From a candidate division TA06 bacterium B3_TA06 (lineage in GTDB: Bacteria > Hydrothermota > Tepidihabitantia > B3-TA06), in contig NJBO01000015.1 in assembly GCA_005223075.1 (NCBI GenBank), forward strand, positions 1 through 50,991: a DNA stretch of 50,991 bases. The letters are read 5' to 3'. The notes beneath the pieces are model-generated. The model was not told the DNA's origin and searched no databases. It saw only the letters and a list, made by a program, of their open reading frames with translations. Positions 6,292-36,045 of this stretch are shown here, one piece after another (within the stretch, counting starts at the first letter, position 1; every line of letters starts with the position of its first letter). A program made the position numbers and the translations under genes.

Positions 6292-7025
6292 TTACTGTGT
6301 AGTGTGAACTTTCAGGTTCGCATTCGATCTCAAATTCTCATCCGAAATCTGAACAAACACACTTCCGCTTTCGTGCAGTAATTCCTTTGCTAACAAGAGC
6401 CTGCCTTAGATACGTCAAATACGAATGTATGCCAAGTTCCCAGGTATCCCTAAACGCCTTTATCATCTCAGGCTCGGCTGTCAAATCTTCGTCCTTGCCG
6501 TCCTTAACGTCCCTTTTATTGACGAACGGTTGAAAGTTTGAGCCATACTTAATGCCATAAGGCGGGTCAATGTAAACCATCTGCACCTGCCCGGCCATGC
6601 CTTCCTTTTCCAAAAGGGAGTTCATAACCAAAAGCGAATCGCCCGCTATAAGCCGGTTTTTCCAGTTGTGCTTGTGCTTGTAAAATTCAATAGCTTCACG
6701 GAGCGGAGGGTTTTCTTCAGGCTCTGCAAACAACGAACCCTGAACCGGCATACCGTTCTGCTTGCGCACCGCCTCAATTATGGTTCGGGGGTCAATGCGC
6801 TCGTGAACGTGAAGCGAAACGGTAGGCACCTCAAACGACGTATGCTCAGGCTTGCCTGCCCACACAAGCTGCGGGTCAAGATGGGGATCGTAGGCATAGG
6901 TTTTCTTCCCTTCATCCTTATCGGTCTTAGCATCCACCAACCCCACAGGCGGATTGTTTACCCGCTCCTTTCCCTTGTGGTCGTATTGCTCAATGGGCTT
7001 TTTCTTTTGTCTTTCTTCTTGCCAT
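6292..7025 (-). pseudogene. Adenine-specific DNA methyltransferase (type III Mod-like), truncated and frameshifted
   Basis: Three frames must be joined to read the family sequence. The ATG at 7025 begins MARRKTKEK and stops early; dropping one A from the A-run restores KPIEQYDHKGKERVNNPPVGLV, the usual N-terminus. The main frame then carries LIAGDSLLVMNSL and the catalytic DPPYGIKYGSNFQ (motif IV). A second shift near 6405 breaks the frame; the alternative frame continues LLLAKELLHESGSVFVQISDENLR. Homology then stops, leaving roughly the first quarter of a protein usually several hundred residues longer, with no target-recognition region or restriction partner. Not functional as it stands. 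The two small shifts could be sequencing errors, but the missing C-terminus is real. Confidence 0.85.
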
Positions 7026-11928: not shown

Positions 11929-12102
11929 GGTTCCTCCTTGTTTAGGTTTTTACTATTCTTTGGAACCTCGGGGATATGGCTCAGAAACAACCATCCTATC
12001 CTCCTCATACATGGTTCACTCTTCATATTTACAGGATTCTACTACAAATATATAGCTTGTCAAGGGTTGTTCTTCAAATATGCGGTGGACATGTTCTGTG
12101 CC

Positions 12103-12120
12103 CTGGATTTAATCATCCAG
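12103..12120. promoter_or_regulatory. Inverted repeat abutting the XRE regulator start
   Basis: CTGGAT, six-base spacer, ATCCAG: perfect six-base arms ending on the base before the ATG at 12121. XRE-family regulators often bind such dyads at their own start, so it may be an autoregulatory operator. If translation begins at 12091 instead, this segment would be coding. Confidence 0.4.
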
Positions 12121-12459
12121 ATGAAGAAAAAGAACAAGCTACTTGTAGGGGTAGGTGATGCGATCAGGGCAAGGCGCAAGGCCCGAAACATGAACCAGGA
12201 AGAACTGGCGCACGCCTCGGGCCTCAACGTTAAATACCTGGGTGGCGTAGAACGTGGGGAGATTAATCTATCGCTGTTGAGTCTCCAGAAGGTAACCGAC
12301 GCTCTGGGGTGTGGGTTAACCGATATCCTGCCGAGAAGTAAAGAAGAAGGATCGAACAAGCTACTCTCCGAGTTGATCGTGTTCCTGGAAACTCAAGACG
12401 AACGGTTCTTGAGCATTGCTCTCCCTTTGCTCCATACATTGCGAGATTCAATCAAGTAG
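12121..12459 (+). CDS. XRE-family transcriptional regulator
   Basis: 112 residues from the ATG at 12121 (an in-frame ATG at 12091 is an alternative; neither has a strong ribosome site). The helix-turn-helix is typical: AIRARRKARNMNQEELAHASGLNVKYLGGVERGEINLSLLSLQKVTDALG, then a short C-terminal region with LLSELIVFLETQD. It should bind DNA as a dimer. It is the only plus-strand gene here and ends 2 bp before the end of the opposing small-gene array, so it is a plausible local regulator of that cluster. Confidence 0.85.
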   Translation: MKKKNKLLVGVGDAIRARRKARNMNQEELAHASGLNVKYLGGVERGEINLSLLSLQKVTDALGCGLTDILPRSKEEGSNKLLSELIVFLETQDERFLSIALPLLHTLRDSIK

Positions 12460-12461
12460 CA

Positions 12462-13529
12462 TCAATCAACACCCAACCCGAGAGTCGTAGAACTGTAGGC
12501 CGTTACGAGCCGGTTGTGATGGGCGCTGTGCCAGGTATCGAGCTTCACCATACTGTGCTCCCTGTCCCGGATCGATCCTTGCACATAGTAGGTATCGCCG
12601 ATTTTAACCATCTTCTGTGTCGTGTGATGGGGCTGGTGCTTGTCTTGCTCCTCACCGTAGAGAGTATGCCAGTTCTTCCGCTGCGTGCGTAAGCTCTGAA
12701 GCGGCCATTCCTGTTCTAGCTCCAGAGCCAATGACCACCACTTCTTACCTTTTTTGCAGAATCTCTCATCCAGTTCAAGGCAAAGAGCCTCATCCTCGAC
12801 AGGAACAAAGAAGAACTCGCCCTGTCTGAGGACGTTGGTCTTACCTCGAACGGGCAGTGGCTGAAGTGACTCGAAGCCCTGACCCATTGTCTTAACCTTG
12901 TGATCAACCAACTCGGCTGTGAAGTAACCGGTATGATCGGTTCCGCCAAGGAATAGTGAAGGCATGTCAGGATTGTGCGGCTTCATGAAGACCTCTTCCT
13001 GATCCCGGCCTAAGCGGTTCCAACGCTTGTTGAAGCTGGGACCGCGCATTAAGACTCCACCTACCAGGTGCCAGTATTTGGCAGAGATTTCACCATCGTC
13101 ATCCTTGCTTGTCCAATACATTCCTCCAGGAGGTAGATTCTTCTCGAAGGTCTCGAAGTCGTCGTGGCCTCGATAAGATGACCGGTAGTCGTCAGGGGAG
13201 AAGTCAATCACTTCGACCGAATGGGGATCAAGTCCGTGTCTATCCAGGATAGCGAACGACGTTCTGGGAAAGTGCTGTCCGGGAAACAGATCACGCAGAA
13301 CGCCGATAACCAAGCTCTGATGGCCTGAGGTGGTTGAAGAGTAACGGTCAGAGTTAAGAAGTATCTCTTGCGGTGTTCCCTTGTGTTGAGGTCTTCTCAC
13401 CGCCAGCCGGAAGTGCCTGCCGAACGAACACAGAGCATTGGTCTCGTCATCGAAAAAGATGCGTGAACCGTTCCTATACCGGTCTTCATACTTAAAGAAA
13501 GCTGTCACGACTTGCTCGTGAGTAGCCAT
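12462..13529 (-). CDS. Unrecognised 355-residue protein, last gene of the small-gene array
   Basis: The largest protein of the array. It begins MATHEQVVTAFFKYEDRYRNGSRIFFDDETNALCSFGRHFRLAVR, suggesting an alpha/beta protein. No signal peptide, membrane helix or family motif is seen. Tryptophans and charged residues are scattered evenly, as in a soluble cytosolic protein. Start supported by AAGGAG. The gene ends 2 bp from the convergent XRE gene. Such proteins are commonly found on plasmids and phages, but no function can be given. Confidence 0.6.
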   Translation of the reverse strand: MATHEQVVTAFFKYEDRYRNGSRIFFDDETNALCSFGRHFRLAVRRPQHKGTPQEILLNSDRYSSTTSGHQSLVIGVLRDLFPGQHFPRTSFAILDRHGLDPHSVEVIDFSPDDYRSSYRGHDDFETFEKNLPPGGMYWTSKDDDGEISAKYWHLVGGVLMRGPSFNKRWNRLGRDQEEVFMKPHNPDMPSLFLGGTDHTGYFTAELVDHKVKTMGQGFESLQPLPVRGKTNVLRQGEFFFVPVEDEALCLELDERFCKKGKKWWSLALELEQEWPLQSLRTQRKNWHTLYGEEQDKHQPHHTTQKMVKIGDTYYVQGSIRDREHSMVKLDTWHSAHHNRLVTAYSSTTLGLGVD

Positions 13530-13587
13530 AATGTCTCCTTGTTTTGTAGGGTTTTAATGTAAAAAGAAACTCCCTGCCCTCACCCGT

Positions 13588-14190
13588 TCAGACTTCTGCT
13601 CTTATCCGAGAGTTCTCCAACTCATTAATCAGGGCTAGGATCTCCTCATCTAACATAGCCTGTATCTCAGTTAGAGGAATCGCCCTGATTAGTGCTACAC
13701 CGTAGAAGATTGTGCCATCGTGGGTTCTATAGTGACCTTTGTTAGTGTATCGGCCGGGTGCGTTGGGATTAGTGTTGTAGCCCTTGTAGACTTCCAGGGT
13801 TTCATCATCCAGGTTGATCACATAAGCCCACTCGCAGAACAAAGAATCAGCCATGAATTCGTGGGAATCTATCATGAACCTCAGTCCTTGTTTCCAGGCA
13901 TCAGGATTTCCTTGAGTCTCTCTCAAGAGGCAGTAAAAGTCACTCGTGGACTGGCTGCTGACCTTGAGGTTTGTCCATCGCTTGCATTCCTCAATCTGCT
14001 CAGGGGTAGGTTTTGAGTGTTCATCGACCAGGATGAGGTCCTGGGCTATCCTCTTCATCTCCTCGACTGAGGTTGAGCGGATGAACTCTATCAAGTTCTT
14101 TCCAAGCCAGTCTGGATATGAATCAAAGTGGTTGTATGTGAGTTTGTCCTGGCCCCCGATACGGAGGCCGTATGCTCCTCTGATTCCCAT
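13588..14190 (-). CDS. Conserved-looking protein of unknown function
   Basis: 200 residues from the ATG at 14190 (AGGAG upstream). It begins MGIRGAYGLRIGGQDKLTYNHFDSYPDWLG and contains CEWAYVINLDDETLEVYKGYNT and GRYTNKGHYR. The pattern of a Tyr/Trp-rich strand, LEVYKG and a following GRY loop resembles a hypothetical family I associate with actinobacteria and phages, from memory only. Probably soluble. About 150 bp separate it from the next gene upstream, a break in the otherwise tight array. Confidence 0.6.
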   Translation of the reverse strand: MGIRGAYGLRIGGQDKLTYNHFDSYPDWLGKNLIEFIRSTSVEEMKRIAQDLILVDEHSKPTPEQIEECKRWTNLKVSSQSTSDFYCLLRETQGNPDAWKQGLRFMIDSHEFMADSLFCEWAYVINLDDETLEVYKGYNTNPNAPGRYTNKGHYRTHDGTIFYGVALIRAIPLTEIQAMLDEEILALINELENSRIRAEV

Positions 14191-14220
14191 CGAATTTTCT
14201 CCTTTCAAAGCAAATAATGC

Positions 14221-14248
14221 CTCCAGAATAGCCCTGGAGTCGTTTTTT
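14221..14248 (+). terminator. Plus-strand terminator-like hairpin in the gap before the 14190 gene
   Basis: CTCCAG, seven-base loop, CTGGAG, then TCG and six Ts. No plus-strand gene precedes it. Its tail (CGTTTTTTAAGCCTT) recurs after the metallopeptidase gene at 32538, so it may be a relic. Confidence 0.35.
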
Positions 14249-14323
14249 AAGCCTTTTTAAGGCCCGATTGTTCTTTGTAATACGTTTCTATGGCTAGATT
14301 TTGCAGGGGGAATAGGATTCTAA

Positions 14324-14340
14324 ATTCCAGCAGCTGGAAT
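14324..14340. repeat. 17-bp palindrome ATTCCAGC-A-GCTGGAAT
   Basis: Perfect eight-base arms around one central base, immediately after the stop of the 14341-14691 gene. The same palindrome on the other strand is at 32627-32642. It could be an operator, or part of a duplicated boundary sequence. Confidence 0.6.
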
Positions 14341-14691
14341 CTATTTGCCTTTGAGTTTCAGACGGCGTCCGACCGTATCCACTGTAATGTCACAGGCTAC
14401 AAGTAGTCGATTGAGGACATCGTAGTCTTCTTTACTGATAGGTTTAATTGAGTAGACCTCGACAAGGCGAACCATCTCGGAATCCCAGTAGGCTTCCTCG
14501 TCCCACCTGGGATCATCTGGGGTGCCATGCTTAGGGTCCTCTGAGATATCGCCCCAATAGAGAGGCAGGTAATCCTTGGCTACGTCTTGGGGATCAGTCT
14601 CGGGGTCGGCTATCTCTACCGTGTAGTGATCCAGATACTCCGCTTCACCGTCCCGGACGCGGTAGGTGATAAGGAAGTGGCGTTTATTCAT
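14341..14691 (-). CDS. Small protein with DpnD/PcfM-like N-terminal module
   Basis: 116 residues. The N-terminus (MNKRHFLITYRVRDG..DHYTVEIADPETDPQDVAKDYLPLYWG) is a two-strand plus helix module like that of the DpnD/PcfM-type small proteins; the rest is acidic and ends in VGRRLKLKGK. It is clearly related to the protein encoded at 15177-15524 (FLIT.R..DG, Y.V..AD, A.DY/AY L). It overlaps the next upstream gene by 8 bp. Confidence 0.55.
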   Translation of the reverse strand: MNKRHFLITYRVRDGEAEYLDHYTVEIADPETDPQDVAKDYLPLYWGDISEDPKHGTPDDPRWDEEAYWDSEMVRLVEVYSIKPISKEDYDVLNRLLVACDITVDTVGRRLKLKGK

Positions 14692-14986
14692 TGGGCACCT
14701 CAACCAACAATCCTTTTTCGTAGGTCTCGATATTGCCCCAATTTTTCTTTGGGACCTGCCAGACCCCGTCCTTACCGACACTGCGCTGGAGCTCAGGAAT
14801 GTGAACGGTCCCCCATTCGGCAAGCGCTGGCACGTTATAGAGCCGAGCGTAGCCGAAGCAGAGACCAGGGGTATTGTCCATGTCCTTCTCGGTGATGAAC
14901 CAGAGGTTGCCGTAGAAGTCTTCCCAGACCTCTATTACTGGGTCACCCTGGCCTTTCACCTTCCAGACGGTTTCTGTTGTTTTCAT
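14684..14986 (-). CDS. Small acidic protein, unrecognised
   Basis: 100 residues from the ATG at 14986 (AGGTGG upstream). Tryptophan-rich, with WKVKGQGDPVIEVWEDFYGNLWFITEKD at the N-terminus, suggesting a small beta sheet. No family recognised. It overlaps the following gene by 8 bp. Confidence 0.55.
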   Translation of the reverse strand: MKTTETVWKVKGQGDPVIEVWEDFYGNLWFITEKDMDNTPGLCFGYARLYNVPALAEWGTVHIPELQRSVGKDGVWQVPKKNWGNIETYEKGLLVEVPNE

Positions 14987-15000
14987 ATAACCACCTGGTT

Positions 15001-15174
15001 TTAATCTGATGCTTCGTAGAGGGCTATGCGACAAGGATCATTATTGTCATCCCTATCTGGACAATCGCCTTCTTCGCAGTCATAGTCCACAACGCGGATG
15101 ATCACGTCGCATTCTGGTGGGATAACCACACCCTGAATCACACCACCTCTCACATAGATATTTACAATTGCCAT
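15001..15174 (-). CDS. 57-residue acidic Cys-containing peptide
   Basis: Begins MAIVNIYVRGGVIQGVVIPP and ends CRIALYEASD. Four Cys lie in its second half (ECDV, YDCEEGDCPD, DPCRIA), which could bind a metal or form disulfides. A good ribosome site (GGAG) precedes it and it fills the gap between two array genes exactly, so I take it as real. The central Asp/Asn-rich loop resembles a calcium-binding type turn, which is only a resemblance. Confidence 0.6.
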   Translation of the reverse strand: MAIVNIYVRGGVIQGVVIPPECDVIIRVVDYDCEEGDCPDRDDNNDPCRIALYEASD

Positions 15175-15176
15175 GG

Positions 15177-15524
15177 TTACTCCTTTGATGTTTGAACTTT
15201 GAGGGTCTCAACAGCTCTCCGTGCATCCTCGGTAGCGTCCCAGGCCATATACTCGGTCAGCACCTTCGCGTGCTCTGCGGGTATCTCCTTGACGTCAAGT
15301 ATGGAATACAGCCGGTCACCGTAGGCTTCTTTGATGGTGTGAGTCTCTTCGTTTTTAATTGTCCATTCACCTGGATCGGCTCCCTGATAGTATCCGCATT
15401 GCAGATAAGCCCAGACGAGATCTTTTGCTTGGTCTGCTGAATCCGCGTTGACAACCGAGTATTCATCGTAATCGTGTGGGCCATCATGTATCCTTATCGT
15501 GATCAAGAACGCTTTCTGTGCCAT
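15177..15524 (-). CDS. Small protein with DpnD/PcfM-like module, paralogue of the 14341 gene
   Basis: 115 residues: MAQKAFLITIRIHDGPHDYDEYSVVNADSADQAKDLVWAYL followed by an acidic helix-rich part (YSILDVKEIPAEHAKVLTEYMAWDATEDARRAVETLK). The N-terminal strand-strand-(A.S.dqA)-helix pattern recurs in at least five other proteins of this array. Strong AGGAGG before the ATG. Confidence 0.57.
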   Translation of the reverse strand: MAQKAFLITIRIHDGPHDYDEYSVVNADSADQAKDLVWAYLQCGYYQGADPGEWTIKNEETHTIKEAYGDRLYSILDVKEIPAEHAKVLTEYMAWDATEDARRAVETLKVQTSKE

Positions 15525-15525
15525 G

Positions 15526-15870
15526 TCATCCTCCTGAATAGAGCTTTGCTGTCTCTTCGTCCATTGTTTCGATGTCGGTCACTTCGGCGTGAGCTACGTC
15601 AACCGTTTCTCCTTTGTAAGCACGGGCCTGGGCTGTTGCTTCATCAGGGGCTTGCACTACGTAGACTATCTTCATCTCTACGCAGTAAATGTGATCCTCA
15701 ACGTCGCCACGGATCTTGCCGTCGCATTCGGCGCACACGAAGTCTCCCTCTGGGAACTTCACGCCGTTTGTTTTCCTCGTCTCCACGTCGTTACAGTCGT
15801 GGACACGGTTTACGAATCTACCTGAACCAGGCGCTACGCTCCGTCCGCAGTGGTTGCAGATTTGACTCAT
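15526..15870 (-). CDS. Small protein with N-terminal zinc-finger-like cysteines and DpnD/PcfM-like end
   Basis: 114 residues from the ATG at 15870. Two CxxC pairs (ICNHCG near the start and FVCAECDG at about 45) could form a treble-clef or ribbon that binds zinc. The C-terminal half (EMKIVYVVQAPDEATAQARAYKG) has the same strand/A.deA/helix pattern as its neighbours, ending in acidic ETMDEETAKLY. Together this suggests a nucleic-acid or protein-binding adaptor. Function unknown. Confidence 0.55.
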   Translation of the reverse strand: MSQICNHCGRSVAPGSGRFVNRVHDCNDVETRKTNGVKFPEGDFVCAECDGKIRGDVEDHIYCVEMKIVYVVQAPDEATAQARAYKGETVDVAHAEVTDIETMDEETAKLYSGG

Positions 15871-15881
15871 GTCGTCCTCCT

Positions 15882-16076
15882 TTACAGGGCATAGTAGATG
15901 TCGAACTTCCAAGCTATCGGCCACACCTCGCCGGTATCTTCATTCTCCTCTTCGATAGGTTCGTAATACCAGGTGTCCGATTCGTCTTCGTTTGCCGTCA
16001 GCATGGCGAGCATTGCTTTGACGACCTTTTCGTCCTCTTCAAGGGGCACATCTTTTCTTCGATGCAGAGTGAACAT
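15882..16076 (-). CDS. 64-residue acidic protein, unrecognised
   Basis: MFTLHRRKDVPLEEDEKVVKAMLAML then DESDTWYYEPIEEENEDTGEVW. Very acidic, with an aromatic WYYEP patch. GGAAG ribosome site upstream. Its acidity and size recall DNA-mimic proteins, but there is no sequence family to name. Confidence 0.5.
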   Translation of the reverse strand: MFTLHRRKDVPLEEDEKVVKAMLAMLTANEDESDTWYYEPIEEENEDTGEVWPIAWKFDIYYAL

Positions 16077-16090
16077 GCTACTTCCTTTCG

Positions 16091-16537
16091 TTAAGAATAT
16101 GCAGCTATTACCGCCGCCCTGACCCGTTCCCAGTCACGCTCGGTATAGGGTTTTTCGTTATCGTGGCCCGCAATTCCCGGCAACGGAGTTACGTAAGCAT
16201 TCTTTATTGCGCCACAGGCATCACTGGTAAAGCTGACAGCTGGTGCCAACCCATACCAGGGATTCGCCCAGGGCACACCCAAGGATCCACCGGTCCTGAC
16301 ATCCTCTGCGAATAACTCTTCATCTGCCAGAAAACGCTCAAACTCTCCCTTGGTGAGCACTGCGAGCATCTTGCGGTGCTTGCCTTTAGACCAGATACCT
16401 CCAAGATAATCGTAGTCATAGCATTCATCGCCTTCGGTCTCAGTCCAAAGTTCGTCGCGTTCGTTGACCGGCGGAAGATGCCAGTTTATGTCTTCGTCTT
16501 CTGGAACGTCCACAGAATAAACCACACCGAACTTCAT
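16091..16537 (-). CDS. Unrecognised acidic protein
   Basis: 148 residues beginning MKFGVVYSVDVPEDEDINWHLPP. Acidic and rich in Tyr, Trp and Gly (YDYDYLGGIWSKGKHRKMLAVLTKGEFERFL), ending in ERDWERVRAAVIAAYS. The start codon overlaps the stop of the upstream gene as ATGA, so translation is coupled. No family recognised. Confidence 0.55.
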   Translation of the reverse strand: MKFGVVYSVDVPEDEDINWHLPPVNERDELWTETEGDECYDYDYLGGIWSKGKHRKMLAVLTKGEFERFLADEELFAEDVRTGGSLGVPWANPWYGLAPAVSFTSDACGAIKNAYVTPLPGIAGHDNEKPYTERDWERVRAAVIAAYS

Positions 16538-16719
16538 GGTGTCTCCTTTCGGCCCTGCTCGTCGGTTAAATCCAGGGGAATGACGGACCAGCCAACCCCC
16601 TCTTCTCCCAGTTTCATCAAATCACCAGGCCCGTATCTGTTTGCATCGTCCCGGCAATCTCCGTAGAATCCTTCAGGATGGTAACACCCGCAACACCCGC
16701 ATTCCTCAAAGATACGCAT
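16534..16719 (-). CDS. 61-residue Cys-rich protein
   Basis: Starts at 16719, where AGGAGG lies eight bases upstream. MRIFEECGCCGCYHPEGFYGDCRDDANRYG places five Cys in the first 23 residues, suggesting a small metal-binding knuckle. The rest is GDLMKLGEEGVGWSVIPLDLTD. Overlaps the next gene by four bases. Confidence 0.55.
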   Translation of the reverse strand: MRIFEECGCCGCYHPEGFYGDCRDDANRYGPGDLMKLGEEGVGWSVIPLDLTDEQGRKETP

Positions 16720-16733
16720 CGAGTCAACCTCCT

Positions 16734-17003
16734 TTAGCATCGTTCGGGGTATGCAAACAATGGGTTTGCAGGATCATTGCTCTTGCTGATCATTCGAGGA
16801 CAGAAGCATATCTCGTAGACAGTCTCCCCGTCTTTGAGCGCAGCTACAAAAGAGCAGGACTCGAAACAGTGAGCTTGAACGTCCTGGGGGTTGATGCCTG
16901 CGAGCTTCATTATGGTGACTGGGCACTCTCGTTTTTCTACCAGCGTCCATAACTGGGGGGAGATCCATTCGCGAGTTACGCCATCAAGAATAACGTCGCT
17001 CAT
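16734..17003 (-). CDS. Unrecognised 89-residue protein
   Basis: MSDVILDGVTREWISPQLWTLVEKRECPVTIMKLAGINPQDVQAHCFESCSF, with four to five Cys (HCFESC, EICFCP) that might bind metal. Ribosome site AAGGAG. It ends 14 bp before the next gene start. Function unknown. Confidence 0.5.
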   Translation of the reverse strand: MSDVILDGVTREWISPQLWTLVEKRECPVTIMKLAGINPQDVQAHCFESCSFVAALKDGETVYEICFCPRMISKSNDPANPLFAYPERC

Positions 17004-17014
17004 CTTACGTCTCC

Positions 17015-17329
17015 TTATCTCTGGAACGGTGCTGCGTAGACGTGGTAGCGCTTACCTTGTATGGTTAGATACTGATAAGCGTTGACGGTTTCATCGTCCA
17101 GAAAGATTTCGCCGTCAGGATTCTCTACCGAATGGATGTCCCCGCCTTGTTCGGGCGTGAAGATAAGATGGATGCACATAGCACTATCACCAACTTGCAC
17201 CTTCAGCGCCGTATGTATGTTGCCGCTCGGCGAGATGTCGATGGGCAGCATGGTGATTGCGCCTTTGCCTTCGGTTCTTCCTCGTAAGACGAGCGGCTCA
17301 ATGCTTGCACAGAGTTGCTTTTGGCTCAT
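17015..17329 (-). CDS. Unrecognised 104-residue beta-rich protein
   Basis: MSQKQLCASIEPLVLRGRTEGKGAITMLPIDISPSGNIHTALKVQVGD, then IHLIFTPEQGGDIHSVENPDGEIFLDDETVNAYQYLTIQGKRYHVY. A run of beta strands with a final small sheet. AGGAGG upstream of the ATG; overlaps the upstream gene by four bases. No family recognised. Confidence 0.52.
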   Translation of the reverse strand: MSQKQLCASIEPLVLRGRTEGKGAITMLPIDISPSGNIHTALKVQVGDSAMCIHLIFTPEQGGDIHSVENPDGEIFLDDETVNAYQYLTIQGKRYHVYAAPFQR

Positions 17330-17637
17330 AACGTGTCCTCCTGGTTAAGCTTGGTGCGTATTTCGGCCAGGGTATTGCGGAGTCGTTCGAGTTCGGTTTC
17401 TTTCAGGGCTATCTGTCTTTGCGTTTCCGCCTCTTCCGGTTCATCGTCCAACTCCTCTTTGCGCTCTCTGAGTTTCCGTATCATTTCCATTGCGTCTTTG
17501 TGTTTTCTCAAGAGAACATATAGCACCTTGGCATCTTCTACTTCCTCTGACTCCAGATGCTGCATTTCATGTGTCAGTTTTGCAAGCATGAGATCATTCC
17601 CCAGCTCGTCCACTGCTTTTGCTAAACTTTTAAGCAT
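17326..17637 (-). CDS. 103-residue coiled-coil protein
   Basis: From the ATG at 17637, almost entirely heptad-patterned helix: MLKSLAKAVDELGNDLMLAKLTHEMQHLES, then RKLRERKEELDDEPEEAETQRQIALKETELERLRNTLAEIR. Likely a two-helix coiled coil that dimerises. Overlaps the preceding gene by 8 bp and the following one by 4 bp. No specific family. Confidence 0.55.
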   Translation of the reverse strand: MLKSLAKAVDELGNDLMLAKLTHEMQHLESEEVEDAKVLYVLLRKHKDAMEMIRKLRERKEELDDEPEEAETQRQIALKETELERLRNTLAEIRTKLNQEDTL

Positions 17638-18040
17638 GGCTGTCATCCTTCTGATCTGCCACGATACTATCGAATGTAATCTCATACCATTCTTTGCCCG
17701 TAGCCCCGCAGTCAGGACAGGTAAAGCGGTAGTAGATGTGTTCTCCTTCCATAATAGCCTTGCCGTCGTATTCCAGCCGACCAAGCCTGTTGCATACTGG
17801 GCACTTGCCAGGTTCCGGATACTTGTTTTCCTCGGGTTCGGGAAGGGGATTATCCTCATGGAACTTCTCCAAACCTATCTCTTCAGCTTCACTCTTGGAA
17901 AGCATCCTTACATCGCCATACCCTTCATCGTGAGTCCAGAGTGGGTCTTCTTGCTCTATTACTTTCAGAGCGTCTTCTTTGCTTTCTGCGGCAACGTAAT
18001 GGAATGACCGTTCTGTAATGCAAAATATCTTCTTAGCCAT
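17630..18040 (-). CDS. DpnD/PcfM-like module plus zinc ribbon
   Basis: 136 residues from the ATG at 18040. N-terminal MAKKIFCITERSFHYVAAESKEDALKVIEQ is the shared strand-strand-(AeSkedA)-helix module. The C-terminal half has KCPVCNRLG and FTCPDCGATG, a standard two-CxxC zinc ribbon with a beta hairpin between (YDGKAIMEGEHIYYR). A small nucleic-acid-binding or adaptor protein is plausible. Confidence 0.6.
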   Translation of the reverse strand: MAKKIFCITERSFHYVAAESKEDALKVIEQEDPLWTHDEGYGDVRMLSKSEAEEIGLEKFHEDNPLPEPEENKYPEPGKCPVCNRLGRLEYDGKAIMEGEHIYYRFTCPDCGATGKEWYEITFDSIVADQKDDSHA

Positions 18041-18050
18041 CTTTGGCCTC

Positions 18051-18623
18051 CTAGTCAGGAGTTCCTTCCTCGACGTGTTTCTTTCGAGAAAACTCTTCTT
18101 CCAGCTTAGCAATCTCTACAGGACTATCACATCTTCGATAGGCACGAGTCAGATCTTTAGCCGCGTTAACAGCAGCTTCAGCTTGCTTGCAGAGAGAGGT
18201 GTATACGCTCCAATAATTGGAGTCGGCTTCATGTTTCTGTGGTAGTGCGCCGCAATGTTCTTTAACCAACTGAGAGAAATCAGGATAACCATCACGTTCG
18301 TCGAGTATCAGTTCATCCATTAGTTTGTTGAATTCTGTGACTGCGGCATTCAAGCCGTGCCATGCTTTTCTTCGTTCATCACCTAACTCCTTTGCTATCG
18401 CTACCAGGTCGTCACCGTAATAGGTGTTGCCCTGATCATCCTCAGCGGTCCATGTTTCCACGTCCTGGACGTGCGAGAACTCAAGGTTCTCATCGATAAG
18501 CTCGGCATCCGGGTCAAGGACCAATCCTCTTGAGTATAGTCTCATGACTTCCTTAAGTGAGGAAGCCTCTATCTGGATAGCCCTAGTCCATACTTCGCTG
18601 ACCATTAACGTAAACTTAGGCAT
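18051..18623 (-). CDS. 190-residue protein with DpnD/PcfM-like N-terminus
   Basis: From the ATG at 18623 (AAAGGAGGG upstream). Residues 1-55 (MPKFTLMVSEVWTRAIQIEASSLKEVMRLYSRG) match the start of the next-upstream 68-residue protein, so the two arose by duplication. The remainder is helical and acidic (ERRKAWHGLNAAVTEFNKLMDELILDERDG, EAAVNAAKDLTRAYRRC). Its 5' end overlaps the upstream gene by 8 bp. Confidence 0.57.
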   Translation of the reverse strand: MPKFTLMVSEVWTRAIQIEASSLKEVMRLYSRGLVLDPDAELIDENLEFSHVQDVETWTAEDDQGNTYYGDDLVAIAKELGDERRKAWHGLNAAVTEFNKLMDELILDERDGYPDFSQLVKEHCGALPQKHEADSNYWSVYTSLCKQAEAAVNAAKDLTRAYRRCDSPVEIAKLEEEFSRKKHVEEGTPD

Positions 18624-18822
18624 CGCTAATTCCCTCCTTTGAGACAACAGCCGGGCTGCTCAGATTGCGTGAGAAATCAAACTCCTGGACCGGTTCGGGG
18701 TCTATCTTGAGCTTCCCGTTATTCCAGGCCTTGTATTTCTGCAGGGCTCCCTGTGGAGTAGCAGCCTCGATCTCAACATCCCTGACCCAAACTTCTGTCG
18801 TTCTTATTGTGAACGTGGGCAT
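18616..18822 (-). CDS. 68-residue DpnD/PcfM-like protein
   Basis: MPTFTIRTTEVWVRDVEIEAATPQGALQKYKAWNNG then KLKIDPEPVQEFDF. This is nearly a stand-alone version of the module: strand, strand, A.tpqgAl helix, then a D/E-rich strand, as in DpnD/PcfM-type proteins (PF14207 as I recall it). Role of that family is unknown; PcfM is encoded on a conjugative plasmid. Confidence 0.6.
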   Translation of the reverse strand: MPTFTIRTTEVWVRDVEIEAATPQGALQKYKAWNNGKLKIDPEPVQEFDFSRNLSSPAVVSKEGISDA

Positions 18823-19088
18823 TATTCCTCCTTCGATGTTGCATCGCCTGTTGGTTGCTCCTCGGGGTCCATGTGTATCAATAGCCAGTGGTCTCGAGAG
18901 GTAACGAGCTCGACCCAGACATCTGCTTCGCCACCAAAGTCGTAGTCATCGGGAGTGCAGTCAGCGTCTTCTATGCCTAATCTTGTGGCTTCCCCTTGTG
19001 CAGATGGGAAAAGCAGAACGACACCTGGCGCATCCAGGTATTCAAGGAGAATGGTCACGTGCTCCTCTTTGACAAACTTGATCTTCAT
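18822..19088 (-). CDS. 88-residue acidic protein, unrecognised
   Basis: MKIKFVKEEHVTILLEYLDAPGVVLLFPSAQGEATRLGIEDADCTPDDYDFGGEADVWVELVTSRDHWLLIHMD. The ATG at 19088 is preferred over 19094 because of its better distance from AAGGAG. Mixed alpha/beta and acidic. Tightly coupled to the upstream stop. Confidence 0.52.
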   Translation of the reverse strand: MKIKFVKEEHVTILLEYLDAPGVVLLFPSAQGEATRLGIEDADCTPDDYDFGGEADVWVELVTSRDHWLLIHMDPEEQPTGDATSKEE

Positions 19089-19090
19089 CG

Positions 19091-19549
19091 TCATGTCTCC
19101 TTGATGGCGATGCCGTGCTTGGCCAAAAGCTCTTTGGCCTCTCCGATGTCCGCAGCACGCTGGGATGCTTGAGCTTTTTCAAGCAGATCGTCTATGTAAG
19201 GTGTTGCAGCCTCTATCATGGCTTGGTTGATGTCTGCGTATTCGTTCCCGTTCTTGTCGGCTGCCCAGTAAGTCATTCTGTATTCAATGGAAGGTGGAAC
19301 TCCATCTATCGGGTCACTGTTGCGTGTATCAAACTGGCTGAGGAACTTTGCTATCCGATCGCCGCTCTTGAAGTAGGTGGCATAGAAACCCTCTCGACTG
19401 AAATGAGCGATAAACGAACAGTGCAGGGTTAGATGTTTGTATAGACGTTCGGTGAAGTCCCCCCAACGCAGACCGTTGACAAGAAACCGCTTCCATGCCT
19501 TAAGCACAAGCTCCTTATCCTTAGCTGTCATGAACTGGGTGTCTTTCAT
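19091..19549 (-). CDS. 152-residue helical protein, unrecognised
   Basis: Starts at 19549 behind AAGGAGGATATC. MKDTQFMTAKDKELVLKAWKRFLVNGLRWGDFTERLYKHLTLHCSFIAHFSREGFYATYF, then a helical acidic end (EAKELLAKHGIAIKET). The N-terminal half has the pattern of a small helical domain acting on or near nucleic acid, but this is not specific enough to name. Confidence 0.52.
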   Translation of the reverse strand: MKDTQFMTAKDKELVLKAWKRFLVNGLRWGDFTERLYKHLTLHCSFIAHFSREGFYATYFKSGDRIAKFLSQFDTRNSDPIDGVPPSIEYRMTYWAADKNGNEYADINQAMIEAATPYIDDLLEKAQASQRAADIGEAKELLAKHGIAIKET

Positions 19550-19560
19550 GATATCCTCCT

Positions 19561-20100
19561 TCAGATTGAGCACAATATCGGGCTGTCTGCTTCGATGGCC
19601 ATCCGCAGGAACCTGATAAACCGTTTGCGTTTCTCGACAAAGTAGTCAAGCCAATCTTTGAATTCTTCGTCCGGGGATTTACCGTTATCGCCCAACTTGA
19701 TCTTCCGGGCCTCAAGATGACGTTTGACCCTTGCTGCGGTCACCGGTATGGATTCGATCTTGTCCAGAATGATTCGAGCATGCTGAGGATGCAAAAGCCC
19801 TTTACCGTCAAGGAAGCCCCCGAGCCAATCCCAGTAACTCAAATTTAAAACCCAGAGGAGGTTGCTTGAATTGTAGCTGTCCCTGAAGTATCCGTTCTCA
19901 ACACAGAACATATTGTCGTAGATACGCATGTAGGCATCCAGCAAGGCTTTCTCTCGTCTCTCGTAGCGTTTCGTTACGTCATCTGGGGTGTCGTCGGGCA
20001 GGTTTCTCATGTTTTCACGCACCTGGTCAAGCTTCTTACCGACCACATCGATGCGCGGGTCTTGCTTGAAGACCTTATCCACGTAGAGATCAGCACCCAT
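19561..20100 (-). CDS. 179-residue MGADLY-type protein, function unknown
   Basis: Begins MGADLYVDKVFKQDPRIDVVGKKLDQVRENMRN and is helical throughout, with a Trp-rich core (NLLWVLNLSYWDWLGGFLDGKGLLHPQ). The MGADLY start is one I associate, from memory, with hypothetical proteins on phages and plasmids. No domain with a known activity is visible. Confidence 0.55.
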   Translation of the reverse strand: MGADLYVDKVFKQDPRIDVVGKKLDQVRENMRNLPDDTPDDVTKRYERREKALLDAYMRIYDNMFCVENGYFRDSYNSSNLLWVLNLSYWDWLGGFLDGKGLLHPQHARIILDKIESIPVTAARVKRHLEARKIKLGDNGKSPDEEFKDWLDYFVEKRKRFIRFLRMAIEADSPILCSI

Positions 20101-20130
20101 TGTGACCTCCTTTGTTTTTTTGAGGGGGAT

Positions 20131-20358
20131 TTACTTCGTTGTGACGAATTGATCTTTCTTCACCCTGGTCTCGAAATATAACCGAACACATGATCCAGGA
20201 TCCAGGTTGTAAAGACCTGAAGGACCGATAAATGCCAAGACGAAACCTTGGTAGAAGCCGTCGTCATTTAGCACCGGCTCGTCGCCACCGTAGATGAAAC
20301 AGTCTCCATTGATATGAGCTGCAACGTAAATGTCAGTGGATGTGATGGTTCTTTTCAC
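20131..20358 (-). CDS. 75-residue beta-rich protein with GTG start
   Basis: GTG at 20358 follows GGAGGATAAC and lies one base after the upstream stop; an in-frame ATG at 20382 would overlap the neighbour and has no site. MKRTITSTDIYVAAHINGDCFIYGG then YQGFVLAFIGPSGLYNLDPGSCVRLYFETRVKKDQF. Beta-rich, soluble, unrecognised. Confidence 0.5.
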   Translation of the reverse strand: MKRTITSTDIYVAAHINGDCFIYGGDEPVLNDDGFYQGFVLAFIGPSGLYNLDPGSCVRLYFETRVKKDQFVTTK

Positions 20359-20359
20359 G

Positions 20360-20686
20360 TTATCCTCCGGGTATATCTTCACGCTTGTGCACCCTGGTTC
20401 TGGTGATGATGGTCTCTACCTCTATCTCTTCGGGCAGGGTAAGCTCGGTTACTCCATCCGGCTTTATCACAAGGGTAAAGGAGAAGCTGCTCTGAGCCTC
20501 TATCTTAACATCCCCCGGATGTTCGGATGACGCTTCTACGTCTACGACACCTGACAGCTTCACGGTTCCGTCATCGAGCATTTCAATCTTCTCCAGGTCG
20601 AAGTGCTTGATCATACCTTCGATAAACGGCGTATCGAAGGCTGTAAAGAGCTCTCCAGCCAATTCTTGCATGTGGATCTCTATCAT
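20360..20686 (-). CDS. 108-residue protein, unrecognised
   Basis: MIEIHMQELAGELFTAFDTPFIEGMIKHFDLEKIEMLDDGTVKLSGVVDVEASS: an N-terminal helix and beta strands with a strongly acidic middle (LTLPEEIEVETIIT). AGGATG ribosome site. Overlaps the upstream gene by four bases. Confidence 0.52.
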   Translation of the reverse strand: MIEIHMQELAGELFTAFDTPFIEGMIKHFDLEKIEMLDDGTVKLSGVVDVEASSEHPGDVKIEAQSSFSFTLVIKPDGVTELTLPEEIEVETIITRTRVHKREDIPGG

Positions 20687-20946
20687 GGTTCATCCTCCAT
20701 CAAATCGGGAAATTCGACCGACTGTTCAAATGGTTCACCGTGAATGATTACGAACTCTCCTTTTCGGGGTATATGCCCGATGCATTCGGCCATGTTGAAA
20801 AACATCCGGTGGTCCCAGTTCACGTATCTTATGCTTCCATCGTCCGTCTTAACCAACATCTGGATTATGGTTCCATGATCAATGACGGATTCCACTTTTC
20901 CGGAGATGACTGACTCCTGTTCTTCTACGACGGTTTGATCATCCAT
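20683..20946 (-). CDS. 87-residue beta-barrel-like acidic protein
   Basis: First good gene of the array, 10 bases after the possible small gene ending at 20956. ISGKVESVIDHGTIIQMLVKTDDGSIRYVNWDHRMF has the strand rhythm of a small OB or SH3-like barrel, followed by IPRKGEFVIIHGEPFEQSVEF. AGGAGGATATC precedes the ATG. The OB idea is a guess from strand pattern only. Confidence 0.52.
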   Translation of the reverse strand: MDDQTVVEEQESVISGKVESVIDHGTIIQMLVKTDDGSIRYVNWDHRMFFNMAECIGHIPRKGEFVIIHGEPFEQSVEFPDLMEDEP

Positions 20947-20955
20947 GATATCCTC

Positions 20956-21129
20956 CTAAGGTCTGTCTTTGGTCAGGAGACGTTTTAGAGAGTCGAGCCC
21001 CAGTTTCACTAGCTTGCTGAGAGTAACTGCTACAATCGCCAGAATGAGCTCTATCAAAAAATCCCGCCAGAAGGCGGGTGTGTCTTTGGTTTCTTTTTCG
21101 GGGATGACGCCTCCTTGTTTATTTCTCAC
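20956..21129 (-). CDS. Possible 57-residue membrane peptide
   Basis: A frame from GTG at 21129 encodes an unremarkable start, then TPAFWRDFLIELILAIVAVTLSKLVKLGLD, a good single membrane helix with an amphipathic tail. The only strong ribosome site (AAGGAGG at about 21111-21117) sits inside this frame and points at an ATC codon four bases later, not at ATG/GTG/TTG. A terminator hairpin lies inside the frame at 21063-21078. It may be a real gene that lost its ATG, or chance. Confidence 0.3.
   Translation of the reverse strand: MRNKQGGVIPEKETKDTPAFWRDFLIELILAIVAVTLSKLVKLGLDSLKRLLTKDRP
21056..21078 (-). terminator. Terminator after the CRISPR array
   Basis: Minus strand: CCCGCC, loop TTCT, GGCGGG, then ATTTTTT. 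It lies about 90 bp past the leader-distal end of the array and ends transcription coming from cas genes, leader and array before the small-gene array. Confidence 0.75.
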
Positions 21130-21164: not shown

Positions 21165-22641
21165 AATAAAACCGTCGCCTCCGTGCGGGAGGCGACGATA
21201 TTGAGCACAAGGAACCCTACTGACTCGGTGTTTCAATCCACGCCTCCGTGCGGGAGGCGACCAGGTTGAGGAATTGAGGCCCTGGGGGTCAACAGTTTCA
21301 ATCCACGCCTCCGTGCGGGAGGCGACGAAAGAGACGGCTGTGCTGCGGCTGCCCGAAGGGTTTCAATCCACGCCTCCGTGCGGGAGGCGACGAGGGTAAG
21401 ATACAAGCGGCAATGGCACGGAGTGTTTCAATCCACGCCTCCGTGCGGGAGGCGACGACGGTGGATTCTTTGTTTCGACGGACCTCAAGGTTTCAATCCA
21501 CGCCTCCGTGCGGGAGGCGACGGCGTCAGATTCAAGTATCTATATCCTCCTTGATGTTTCAATCCACGCCTCCGTGCGGGAGGCGACGGGCATTACCCTG
21601 AGAGACGTAGAAAAATACCTTGTTTCAATCCACGCCTCCGTGCGGGAGGCGACCAGTATCTCCAGCACCGGAGCCAGACTCGTAAAGTTTCAATCCACGC
21701 CTCCGTGCGGGAGGCGACCTTGAGTTCCTGGGGCACGTAGTTATCAAGATCAGTTTCAATCCACGCCTCCAAGCAGGAGGCGACCTTATCGGCTATCAAT
21801 CCATAGAAGTTTGCAACGTTTCAATCCACGCCTCCAAACAGGAGGCGACAGGAATTTATTCAGGTTGTGCAGACCCCAATAAGTTTCAATCCACGCCTCT
21901 GCGCGGGAGGCGACTACGGTTGCTTGAATACTTATTATCGGCAACCACGTTTCAATCCACGCCTCCAAGCAGGAGGCGACGATGAAGAGATAAACGAGAT
22001 TCTCTTGAGGGATGTTTCAATCCACGCCTCCGTGCGGGAGGCGACCATGATTCCTCCTTAGTTTCGCGCGATGGTAAATGGTTTCAATCCACGCCTCCGT
22101 GCGGGAGGCGACTATATCGTATTAGCCGTGAAGCCTCATACACAAGGTTTCAATCCACGCCTCCGTGCGGGAGGCGACGATAGACGCACGCCCTGCAGAT
22201 AATACTGTCAAGTTTCAATCCACGCCTCCGTGCGGGAGGCGACATCAGAAGCAAACCTAGAAGCTCTATCCTCAAGGTTTCAATCCACGCCTCCGTGCGG
22301 GAGGCGACGCCTGTAAGGAGGCCATTATGTCAGAACCACTACGGTTTCAATCCACGCCTCCGTGCGGGAGGCGACACTCCGAAGGAAGATATACGTTCCC
22401 CACAAGCTAGTTTCAATCCACGCCTCCGTGCGGGAGGCGACCTGGGGGTATGGGAAGATTCAACTGCACAATGTCGTTTCAATCCACGCCTCCGTGCGGG
22501 AGGCGACCGCGCTTACCATCGAGTTTTACCCGCCTGAACAGGTTTCAATCCACGCCTCCGTGCGGGAGGCGACGGTTGGCTCTATGACCCTTCTGATACT
22601 GATAATACGGTTTCAATCCACGCCTCCGTGCGGGAGGCGAC
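21165..22641 (-). CRISPR. Type I-C CRISPR array: 22 repeats plus one degenerate terminal repeat
   Basis: Repeats are 32 bp; on the minus strand they begin GTCGCCTCCC and end GTGGATTGAAAC, the I-C signature, with stem GCCTCC/GGAGGC. Repeats start at 21230, 21295, 21360, 21425, 21490, 21556, 21622, 21687, 21753, 21818, 21883, 21949, 22014, 22081, 22147, 22212, 22277, 22344, 22410, 22476, 22542 and 22610. Spacers are 33-36 bp. A decayed repeat at 21165-21196 keeps only its stem half, marking the leader-distal end. Four consecutive repeats (21753-21980) have altered loops. Read on the minus strand, leader at the high-coordinate end, next to cas2. Confidence 0.97.
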
Positions 22642-22827: not shown

Positions 22828-23118
22828 TCATACAACGAGAGGTCCTTCAGGGTCATATCCGGGTTTTGCTCCAACATGTTCTACACGGCGTTTCCAGTTT
22901 TTCCCCAAAAAGTAAAACCGCAAGCTATCCTTCTCTGGGTCGATTGTATCGATCAAACACTCACGCAAATCAGCCCATTGAGCTGGATCGATCAGGCATT
23001 CGAACACGGAATTCTGAACCCTTTGCCCAAGGTTTTCACAAGCCTTGGCTACGTGACGGAGCCTCTTGCGTCCTTCAGCTTCTTCAGTGTTAACGTCATA
23101 GGTTACGAGAACCATCAT
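22828..23118 (-). CDS. cas2: CRISPR-associated endoribonuclease/integrase subunit Cas2
   Basis: 96 residues, the usual I-C length. MMVLVTYDVNTEEAEGRKRLRHVAKACENLGQRVQNSVFECLID: ferredoxin-like fold with the VTYDV strand and conserved Asp, then FECLIDPAQW. Cas2 dimers bridge two Cas1 dimers in the spacer-insertion complex. It follows cas1 after three bases and precedes the leader. Confidence 0.95.
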   Translation of the reverse strand: MMVLVTYDVNTEEAEGRKRLRHVAKACENLGQRVQNSVFECLIDPAQWADLRECLIDTIDPEKDSLRFYFLGKNWKRRVEHVGAKPGYDPEGPLVV

Positions 23119-23121
23119 AAT

Positions 23122-24153
23122 TCATCTCCAGATAAATGGCGGATAGCCGTCTAAATCCCCACGCAGGAATCGAGCCATAAGCAAAGCCTGCACATAGGGA
23201 AGTAAACCAACGGCAACTTTCTCACCAATGAAGGGGTGCTGTATCTCTTCGGTCTTTCGTTTCTGGTAAGCGACCAGAACTTCTTTACGTGTCTTGTTAT
23301 CCATGAGCACTGCTCCAGTTTCTGTTCGTTTGAATCCTTTACCTTTTACCTGCTGACGGTTAACTAGAGAGAGAGCGACCCGGTCGGCCAGAATTGGCCG
23401 GAATTCCTCCATGAGGTCAAGAGCTAGACCTGGACGTCCTGGTCTATCTCTGTGTAAAAAACCTACTGCTGGATCGAGTCCGACGGATTCAAGAGCGTAG
23501 GTTACATCGTGAGCCAAAATAGCGTAAAGAAAGGATAATAAAGCGTTCATTGGGTCGAGTGGTGGGCGTTTACTGCGGTCTCGAAAGTAAAAGTGGTCTT
23601 TTTGAGCCAGGATCAAGTGTTCGAAGACGTTGAAGTATATGCGGGCAGCTTCACCTTCTCTGCCTCTTACGACGTCCAATGCAATTGATTCCTGAAGTGT
23701 AATAAGTAATCGAGCCAGGCTCCCAGCTGCTTTCTTAAGTGCAGAGGCATTGGGATTCGAGGGATGATCCCGAAGCGTCCTTTGTAGAACAGTTCGGCAA
23801 TTGGATATCTTGGCAAGGACGACTGATCTTGCTATATCGGAAGACGATTGAGGATCATCAGCTCGGCGATACTGTTCACGTCTCAGGAGAACATTGCCGG
23901 ATACAGGCCCATGCATACGAGCTAGAAATTTGCCGTATTCACTGTGGAAGGAGATAAGAACTCCTCGTTCGCCGCAAAGACCCATCAAAGGGGGACTGCA
24001 CGAAACCCGACCGAAGCATACTATTCCACTCAGGGTGTGTATGGGGACCTGAAGCTTGGTCTCGTGGTCAGCCCGGACTACGACGGTTTCGCCTTCGCGA
24101 CAGAGATACGCGCCCTGTGTGGTTACGAAGAGAGTATTGAGAAGTCGTTTCAT
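23122..24153 (-). CDS. cas1: CRISPR-associated integrase Cas1
   Basis: 343 residues. N-terminal beta domain (MKRLLNTLFVTTQGAYLCREGETVVV) and helical catalytic domain with the metal residues Glu in GEAARIYFNVFEH, His in AVGFLHRDRPGRPGLALDLMEEFRP and Asp just after it. Inserts protospacers at the leader end. The start codon overlaps the cas4 stop as ATGA and GAGGAA precedes it. Confidence 0.96.
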   Translation of the reverse strand: MKRLLNTLFVTTQGAYLCREGETVVVRADHETKLQVPIHTLSGIVCFGRVSCSPPLMGLCGERGVLISFHSEYGKFLARMHGPVSGNVLLRREQYRRADDPQSSSDIARSVVLAKISNCRTVLQRTLRDHPSNPNASALKKAAGSLARLLITLQESIALDVVRGREGEAARIYFNVFEHLILAQKDHFYFRDRSKRPPLDPMNALLSFLYAILAHDVTYALESVGLDPAVGFLHRDRPGRPGLALDLMEEFRPILADRVALSLVNRQQVKGKGFKRTETGAVLMDNKTRKEVLVAYQKRKTEEIQHPFIGEKVAVGLLPYVQALLMARFLRGDLDGYPPFIWR

Positions 24154-24833
24154 GATTCCTCACCGGAATCTGATTCGACTATACGATTGAGGTATCTCAT
24201 GACGTTTCGTTTCACTCCTGTTGTCTTTGGCATACAGAGGTCACGCATGGAACACTTGTTACACTTCTTTTCGTAACGTGCACGGGGTGTTTCTCCTTTA
24301 CGACATAGGTCGTGCAGACTTCTTGCAGCTTCTTCGGTTTCCCTGCGTAAGTTATCATCAAAGGCTACTTTCAACCTTCTGGCGGTCTTGCCGTAATACA
24401 ATGCACCTGACGATATGTTGACGCTGAGCATCTCCTCAAGGCATAATGCCTGGGCACAGAGTTGAACCTCGTATTCTCTTTCATGTCTGAGTCTTCCGCG
24501 CTTATACTCCACTGGAAATGGTCTCCAAAAGCCAGATACTCCTTCAATCCTGGTTCCATTTTGCATATCTTCGCGTAAGCGATGGAATTCGACGACGTCG
24601 GCTTTCCCTGTAAGCCCGAGCCTGAGAGATCTTAGGTATAGTCCGCGAACAATTCTCAAAACCCCGCGAACCTCGCTATCACTAAGATGTGCACGATCAT
24701 GGAGATGGTGTCCTTCTGCCGTATATAGATTCTCGTTCCAGAGACCTTCGACGTATATGAGCGCCGCCCTGCGTTCACAGTAAAGAAGTTGTGAAAGTGC
24801 AGATATTGGTAAGAGATCTTCCTCTTCAAACAT
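24150..24833 (-). CDS. cas4: Cas4 RecB-like nuclease
   Basis: 227 residues. Iron-sulfur cysteines: one near the N-terminus (LLYCERRAALIY) and three near the end (KKCNKCSMRDLCMPK). RecB-type nuclease motifs in between: GLTGKADVVEF, FPVEYKRGRLRHEREYEVQLCAQALCLEE. Cas4 trims prespacers and secures PAM-correct insertion in I-C systems. Only a weak ribosome site; placed 12 bp after cas7. Confidence 0.95.
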   Translation of the reverse strand: MFEEEDLLPISALSQLLYCERRAALIYVEGLWNENLYTAEGHHLHDRAHLSDSEVRGVLRIVRGLYLRSLRLGLTGKADVVEFHRLREDMQNGTRIEGVSGFWRPFPVEYKRGRLRHEREYEVQLCAQALCLEEMLSVNISSGALYYGKTARRLKVAFDDNLRRETEEAARSLHDLCRKGETPRARYEKKCNKCSMRDLCMPKTTGVKRNVMRYLNRIVESDSGEES

Positions 24834-24845
24834 GGTCGCCAGCCT

Positions 24846-25874
24846 TTACTTGACCTCCAGGAATCCGGGAACCTCGTCCCACTGGATTTTCGCTTTACCG
24901 TTTTCTCCAGCCACCATGAAGCCTACCTGAACACCTTTTGGCAACTTGCTCTTATAGAACGTAATCTGGTAGTCGGCGAACGACCTGGGTGCATCAATAC
25001 CTTCACGTTTCTTCACTTCAATTAGCTCAAAGAGCTTGTGGGCCGGGGCGCAGCCGAGCCTTGCCTGCTGGGAGCGCTGCGTCTCATCGGAATCGGTGCC
25101 CACGTGTCTGAACACGAACACAGGCTCGCGGACAGACATGAGTCCCTTGCTGGCGGAGCGGTCGTGCTCATACATGTTAAAGAGCGCTTCCCAGAAGAGT
25201 TTGAGGTCTTCTTCAGTAAAGCCGGTATCATTGGCAAGATGGGCGCTGATGAAGCCCTTGCCTACGTAAAGACCGTAAGGAATCAGGGCTTTGCGGCCCA
25301 TTGTGCGCAGCTTATCCTCAGGCTTATTTGCTTCCAATTTCGCGTATTCTTGGCTCGACGGCAAGACTTTTCCCTCAGGTTCAGCAATCGCCATTCGGGT
25401 GATGGAAACATCCAAGGGTAAAATAGGATCAAGCGATCGAGCAAAGGAGAACTGAACCGGTCCTCTTACTTGACCGGCGTTGGGACCTGTGCTGAGGACT
25501 GCGCCGAATGTGCGAACATCGTAGAAGTTTTCGCACATCCAGTTCCGGGCTAACTCAACCTTGGCCTTGTTTGCTTTTTTATCAGTCTTCAGGCCGCCCT
25601 TGGTTTCTTCGTGAGCCACGGCTATTTGAGTGTTCAGATTTGTAGCATGTTGGATGAAGATGTTATACTTTTCTTCTCCTTGCTTTGCTACCTGGACGTA
25701 GTTGCGGATACGGCGTTTAAGGGCAACGTCCGACACAAGCCCGTGCATGTCCTGCGGGTCAATACGCGGAGCGTTGCCCGAGTCAGGATCGCCGTTTGGA
25801 TTGCCGTTCTCGCAATCAAACAGAACCAGGAACTCATACCGGTTCTGGATAGGTTCGGTTTTCTCTTTAGCCAT
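24846..25874 (-). CDS. cas7c: Cas7 (Csd2), type I-C Cascade backbone
   Basis: 342 residues, longer than the usual ~290. Opens [49 protein letters not shown], the Csd2 hallmark. Several copies coat the crRNA. A conserved-looking SRDLNG-type loop is replaced here by [17 protein letters not shown]. Strong GAGGAGG. Separated from cas8c by two bases. Confidence 0.95.
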
Positions 25875-25876
25875 TG

Positions 25877-28302: not shown

Positions 28303-28328
28303 ACGTCCTCCTTTCGAGCCTATCCGAC

Positions 28329-35934: not shown

Positions 35935-35969
35935 TCCGACGGTCGTGGGTTCGAGTCCCTCCAGGCGCG
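35896..35969 (+). tRNA. tRNA-Arg (anticodon TCT)
   Basis: 74 nt. Acceptor GCGCCTG/CAGGCGC, D arm GCTC/GAGC, anticodon arm TCGGA-TTTCTAA-TCCGA with TCT, T arm GTGGG-TTCGAGT-CCCTC (one mismatch), discriminator G. CCA is not encoded. Probable attachment site of the adjacent element. Confidence 0.95.
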
Positions 35970-36045
35970 CTTTAAGTCTGTGGCTCCAAAGGTCCCAGCG
36001 TTAACCCCTAAGATGGAAGCAACGGCTCACTTCTGCAGGCGATAA

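Follow-up and report, generated by a model that had tools for sequence, protein, structure and literature searches.

A laterally acquired array of small genes, probably of tailed-phage type, beside the type I-C CRISPR-Cas locus of a candidate division TA06 bacterium

Layout of the small-gene block

The genome of the candidate division TA06 bacterium B3_TA06 (assembly GCA_005223075.1) is a 2.41-Mb draft in 42 contigs, one of which (C15; NJBO01000015.1) was analysed over its whole length of 50,991 nt and is referred to here as the window. Between a regulatory gene and a type I-C locus of clustered regularly interspaced short palindromic repeats (CRISPR) and cas genes, it carries a block of 23 minus-strand open reading frames (ORFs), g01 to g23, occupying positions 12462-21129 and encoding proteins of 57-355 amino acids (aa), with a median near 100 aa. 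A preliminary description made from the nucleotide sequence had counted about 22 genes in 12462-20946; that interval does hold 22 ORFs, and the 23rd, a 57-aa ORF at 20956-21129 just outside it, had been omitted.

The block genes are genuine. All 23 frames are open, 96.3% of 12462-21129 is coding on a single strand, and 20 of the 22 intergenic gaps are 30 nt or shorter, eight of them being overlaps. The gaps range from -8 to +30 nt, apart from two near the 3' end of 58 and 150 nt, and this tight packing suggests transcription into one or a few polycistronic messages. A Shine-Dalgarno-like site precedes 20 of the 23 starts, against 26 of 154 (17%) other minus-strand ATG triplets and 9 of 133 (7%) plus-strand ones in the same DNA, an enrichment which indicates that the block is real coding sequence. 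The proteins are acidic, with 17.8% aspartate plus glutamate and 11.3% lysine plus arginine, and in all but g01, g18, g19 and g23 (19 proteins) the isoelectric point is below 5.5. The dense array of small acidic genes reported in the preliminary description was thereby confirmed, as were three further elements of it: a convergent XRE regulator at the end of the array (XRE/HTH_3, 11938-12459, plus strand, convergent with g01, E 8.5e-12), two zinc ribbons (paired cysteine motifs in g07 and g14) and the lack of any recognised enzyme, since no enzymatic or sensor domain was recognised in the block. Pfam and NCBIfam returned nothing above cutoff among the block genes scanned. Two pairs of genes, g03/g06 and g15/g16, are duplicates.

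Co-occurrence of block families in phages

Relatives of g03 (116 aa, 14341-14691), g01 (355 aa, 12462-13529) and g07 (114 aa, 15526-15870) lie within 2.5 kb on one strand of IMGVR_UViG_3300028026_000005, a 98.6-kb tailed-phage contig (L209). The g03 relative stands two genes upstream from that of g01, as it does in the window. MazG and ThyX adjoin the cluster, and other parts of the contig encode a terminase, a major head protein and baseplate proteins. L209 ranked first in two scans, one with g07 and one with the g03/g06 alignment, which already included the L209 protein when it was run. The remaining gene set of this phage differs from the block, and g02 was not found on it. Relatives of g01 and g02 occur together in another locus (L049).

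On a broader scale, at least two block families were found in nine fetched loci, always on one strand and within a few kb, five of these being g04 with g02 in loci that had been fetched because of g02. The complete 23-gene order was found nowhere, and it is sub-sets of two to three families that recur. The refuting outcome named in the preliminary description, absence of the order elsewhere, was thereby borne out in part. The g01 gene belongs to the phage families phrog_7247 and phrog_29643 (PHROGs E 3e-8); its relatives in Gordonia and Microbacterium phages are embedded in series of small hypothetical genes on one strand, and the same kind of series makes up the annotated neighbourhood of g01 and g02 relatives in Mx1, Tankvirus, Smoothievirus, RHph_I4 and Pumpernickel. 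An alignment scan of IMG/VR with g01 yielded 18 loci or contigs.

The g02 family and its fold

The 200-aa product of g02 (13588-14190) belongs to the viral family phrog_30528 (PHROGs E 1e-32). Its relatives are found in tailed phages of Myxococcus, Arthrobacter, Microbacterium, Rhizobium and others, and also on a few plasmids; small same-strand hypothetical genes surround them wherever annotation was read. Alignment scans recovered 172 stretches in IMG/VR and, among bacterial and archaeal genomes, 67 loci, the best match being in Zixibacteria.

A structure model built with AlphaFold2 from 66 sequences reached a predicted local distance difference test (pLDDT) score of 95.8. Neither by fold nor by profile did g02 match a solved structure in the PDB. 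Among viral models, it matched proteins of Orpheovirus (E 1e-12), Edafosvirus, a siphovirus, Bacillus phage G, Tupanvirus and Medusavirus, none of which is functionally characterised. As modelled, the fold is confidently predicted, absent from the PDB and common to phages and giant viruses. A bolder idea, tentative and in our view on the unlikely side, is that g02 founds a virus-wide family with an undescribed fold, spanning tailed phages and giant viruses of eukaryotes and serving a common step of takeover or counter-defence, with the block as one bacterial carrier.

Other genes of the block

The paralogues g03 and g06 (115 aa, 15177-15524) share 33% identity (E 5e-8), and the relative of g03 on L209 was found at E 1e-15. 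For g04 (100 aa, 14684-14986), phmmer gave two weak matches (0.003 and 0.008), both to the gene directly upstream of a g02 relative. Five g04-related proteins are all DUF2958 (PF11171) by Pfam, and their comparison with g04 in hhalign gave a probability of 92% over 44 columns (E 6e-7). By this alignment, g04 is a divergent DUF2958 protein matching across the conserved core, but it lies below Pfam's own cutoff in a single-sequence scan. In contigs of Flavobacteriales and Chryseobacterium, too, DUF2958 is encoded near g02.

The zinc ribbon of g07 (CNHCGRS...CAEC) matches its relative on L209 at 58%; at about 70% it matches a domain found in frames linked to methyltransferases, on host contig C1 and in genome G005. 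These closest bacterial relatives, one in the host and one in a member of its family, lie C-terminal to methyltransferase sequence and beside putative restriction genes, a setting which connects the source of the block with the host lineage or with restriction loci held in common. In both loci, L217 6882-7514 (G005:C51) and L208 10683-11207 (G000:C1), the methyltransferase-like sequence is continuous with the g07-type ribbon and followed by the putative restriction genes, and the own-genome copy (L208) looks decayed. Two profile matches of g07 to zinc-finger structures covered 16 residues only and were taken as chance. No solved structure was matched by sequence profile for g01 or g03, and the model of g01 was too weak to use (pLDDT 68.7).

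The second ribbon lies at the C-terminus of g14 (136 aa, 17630-18040) and is weakly similar to Lar restriction-alleviation ribbons (Lar 0.043; phrog_599 0.023); in locus L121, the gene that immediately follows a g01 relative encodes a weak relative of g14 (E 0.001), which possibly places g14, too, among the families with relatives in phage or mobile-element contigs. The N-terminus of g15 (190 aa, 18051-18623) is paralogous to g16 (68 aa, 18616-18822), with 35% identity (E 6e-6), and g16 is weakly DpnD/PcfM-like (PF14207, E 0.0034), below Pfam's own cutoff in a single-sequence scan. Weak similarities were also registered for the cysteine-rich g10 (68 aa, 16534-16740; phrog_16888, 0.012), for g20 (75 aa, 20131-20358; phrog_9339, 8.5e-4 over 24 residues) and for g22 (87 aa, 20683-20946), which is weakly like the phage L5 gene 47 family (0.007; phrog_690, 0.008).

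The other genes are a very acidic ORFan without family match, g05 (57 aa, 15001-15174), a coiled-coil-like protein, g13 (103 aa, 17326-17637), and the ORFans g08 (64 aa, 15882-16076), g09 (148 aa, 16091-16537), g11 (89 aa, 16734-17003), g12 (104 aa, 17015-17329), g17 (88 aa, 18822-19088), g18 (152 aa, 19091-19549), g19 (179 aa, 19561-20100) and g21 (108 aa, 20360-20686). The g19 product starts with MGADLYV and contains GYFRDSYNSS; a likeness seen by eye to L122 9246-10001, beside a g01 relative, was not recovered by phmmer. The hydrophobic, basic g23 (57 aa, 20956-21129) is the least certain gene, because its start codon is uncertain and a terminator-like hairpin lies inside it (21078-21063). 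A tblastn search of phages with g06, g09, g18 and g19 gave no match, and single-sequence scans of viral contigs with g01, g02 and g19 gave nothing; alignments were needed for matches.

The CRISPR-Cas neighbour

The complete type I-C locus which flanks the block consists of cas2, cas1, cas4, cas7c, cas8c, cas5c and cas3 (22828-30614, minus strand) and an array of 22 spacers with a 32-nt repeat (21226-22641, minus strand). The block had been described as ending flush against this array; the adjacency is real, and the geometry is corrected in that it is with its old (trailer) end that the array meets the block, at the block's upstream (5') end. A degenerate terminal repeat followed by a T-run forms a terminator-like hairpin (21199-21171, minus strand), which marks the block boundary some 40 bp upstream of the first small ORF; transcription of the CRISPR array is accordingly predicted to end without reaching g23. 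The spacers gave no convincing match, self-targeting included, to the window or to the fetched relatives, and a simple repeat scan of 174 other loci, nearly all around g01 or g02 relatives, found no clear array, with four weak repeat matches. In view of the intervening hairpin, the lack of spacer matches and the lack of CRISPR at the relatives, the CRISPR neighbour is best read as lying outside the block, in an incidental position.

In another locus, L034 (G033:C96), from a genome of the same class and another family, a type I-C Cas1 is 77% identical to that of the window, and same-genus genomes are without it. This pattern suggests a recent exchange of the I-C locus.

The genomic island

No relative of g01 or g02 was found in the 146 other genomes of the phylum that were searched, which argues that the block was acquired laterally. 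The tetranucleotide profile of 3-36 kb is unlike that of core contigs, and the block itself is nearest to the cas region (0.87, against 0.80, 0.79 and 0.49-0.67 for other stretches of the same genome). At the right edge of this island, a tyrosine integrase gene (34696-35970) runs into a tRNA-Arg(TCT) at 35896-35970. A remnant of the same integrase end, together with two fragments resembling tRNA 5' ends, is present on contig C27 (L032 9086-9223) and suggests several insertions at this tRNA-Arg. Large ORFs of defence-related appearance were seen near the C27 remnant.

Just before the integrase gene, the ORF at 33605-34249, with PHIHILI and GYVTKK motifs, resembles by eye an HUH rolling-circle initiator; it had no match in Pfam, PHROGs or the PDB. 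At the other side of the window, 6338-6946 holds a truncated type III DNA methyltransferase (PADLOC MTase_III, E 7e-46) in an apparently broken restriction-modification locus.

A search of the same genome for a second copy of the block returned only the g07 ribbon of the methyltransferase fragment on contig C1, and no prophage tied to the block was found elsewhere in it, one terminase family having been searched. A lone 490-aa terminase-like frame (G000:C4 29.2-30.7 kb; L234 14228-15697; phrog_675, E 1.4e-5) sits among ordinary chromosomal genes, with no block relatives. In related genomes, one flanking gene was found, on contigs too short to reveal an empty site.

Discussion

We consider it likely that the block is a laterally acquired early or accessory array of tailed-phage type, brought by a phage or a phage-like mobile element and residing in a genomic island. 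At the level of sequence comparison, the analysis shows both its lateral presence and its phage-type gene content. The phage or plasmid early region which the preliminary description had listed among its options is supported by the homologues and their gene neighbourhoods. The block is similar to the early or accessory arrays of Tankvirus, Smoothievirus and Myxococcus phage Mx1, which are likewise composed of overlapping same-strand genes of 50-350 aa, nearly all hypothetical, and carry relatives of g02 or g01. It differs from them in its lack of virion genes, in its location in a bacterial island and in that it does not share most of its individual families with them.

Several observations weigh against this origin. 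Of the window ORFs that were read, none was seen to encode a terminase, capsid or tail protein, no left or second attachment (att) site was found in it, and the source assembly is fragmented. About 16 of the 23 block genes are without a convincing relative anywhere searched and the nearest g02 relative found is only about 55% identical, so no source phage could be identified. The way in which five of the nine multi-family loci were fetched also counts here. Furthermore, g02 and g04 relatives are present in plasmid and chromosomal-element contigs, and a plasmid origin is possible.

Such an origin would make the block an accessory region of a plasmid or of an integrative and conjugative element, with cargo of the establishment or leading type, possibly from the element that brought the I-C CRISPR-Cas locus. 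The plasmid-borne g02 relatives, DUF2958 near g02 in Flavobacteriales and Chryseobacterium, the integrase at tRNA-Arg and the closeness of block and cas region in tetranucleotide profile all fit this account, although the shared composition may merely reflect long residence in one island. Moreover, plasmid leading regions carry anti-defence gene clusters (PMC11541004), which are likewise clusters of small genes on mobile elements; the block, however, has no recognised anti-defence family or relaxase. Neither relaxase, type IV secretion system nor partition gene was recognised in the window, and the multi-family matches with structural or replication context are phage (L209, and L049 by reading). 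We regard a plasmid or conjugative source as improbable.

Counter-defence was also raised in the preliminary description, and for the small early genes of phages in general it is a sensible supposition. In this account, the block would be an island of small acidic inhibitors, some perhaps directed at the neighbouring I-C effector, and it draws on the small, acidic, phage-type proteins encoded in tandem, on the weakly Lar-like ribbon of g14 and on the recurrence of the g07 ribbon in methyltransferase-linked proteins. No known inhibitor was matched, however: for the genes scanned, PHROGs, Pfam and NCBIfam yielded no anti-CRISPR family. In place of a downstream aca-like gene there is the convergent XRE gene, no CRISPR array is evident beside the relatives, and the spacers match neither the window nor the fetched relatives convincingly. 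An anti-CRISPR or counter-defence island seems quite improbable to us, and it overlaps the phage-type reading, as phage early genes may include such inhibitors. The remaining proposal, a new defence island in which the block would serve host immunity, could appeal to its position in a variable island, with a CRISPR-Cas locus on one side and the stretch that holds the truncated type III methyltransferase on the other. Against it, PADLOC found in the twelve block proteins scanned only a weak RT_VI match for g18 (0.0024), the proteins carry no recognised enzymatic or sensor domain, and the relatives are carried by phages in gene arrays. The block probably does not represent a new defence system; we rate that proposal as very unlikely.

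If the phage-type reading is right, the array, lodged between the XRE gene and the CRISPR-Cas locus, would be expressed from one polycistronic message or a few. By analogy with phage early regions, it may be expressed early after DNA entry, and its small acidic products could act on the replication, transcription, restriction or recombination machinery of the host or of competing elements, in a role of takeover or counter-defence. With all 23 frames open, the block would now be either recently arrived cargo or retained for some benefit.

Conclusions

A striking array of small genes beside a CRISPR locus would, on this reading, be cargo of a mobile element and not a partner in defence. The families g01, g02, g03/g06, g04/DUF2958 and g07, which travel together, could serve to mark accessory regions of phages in bacterial phyla that have been poorly sampled. 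The finding most worth following is g02, which would be a good target for structural work.

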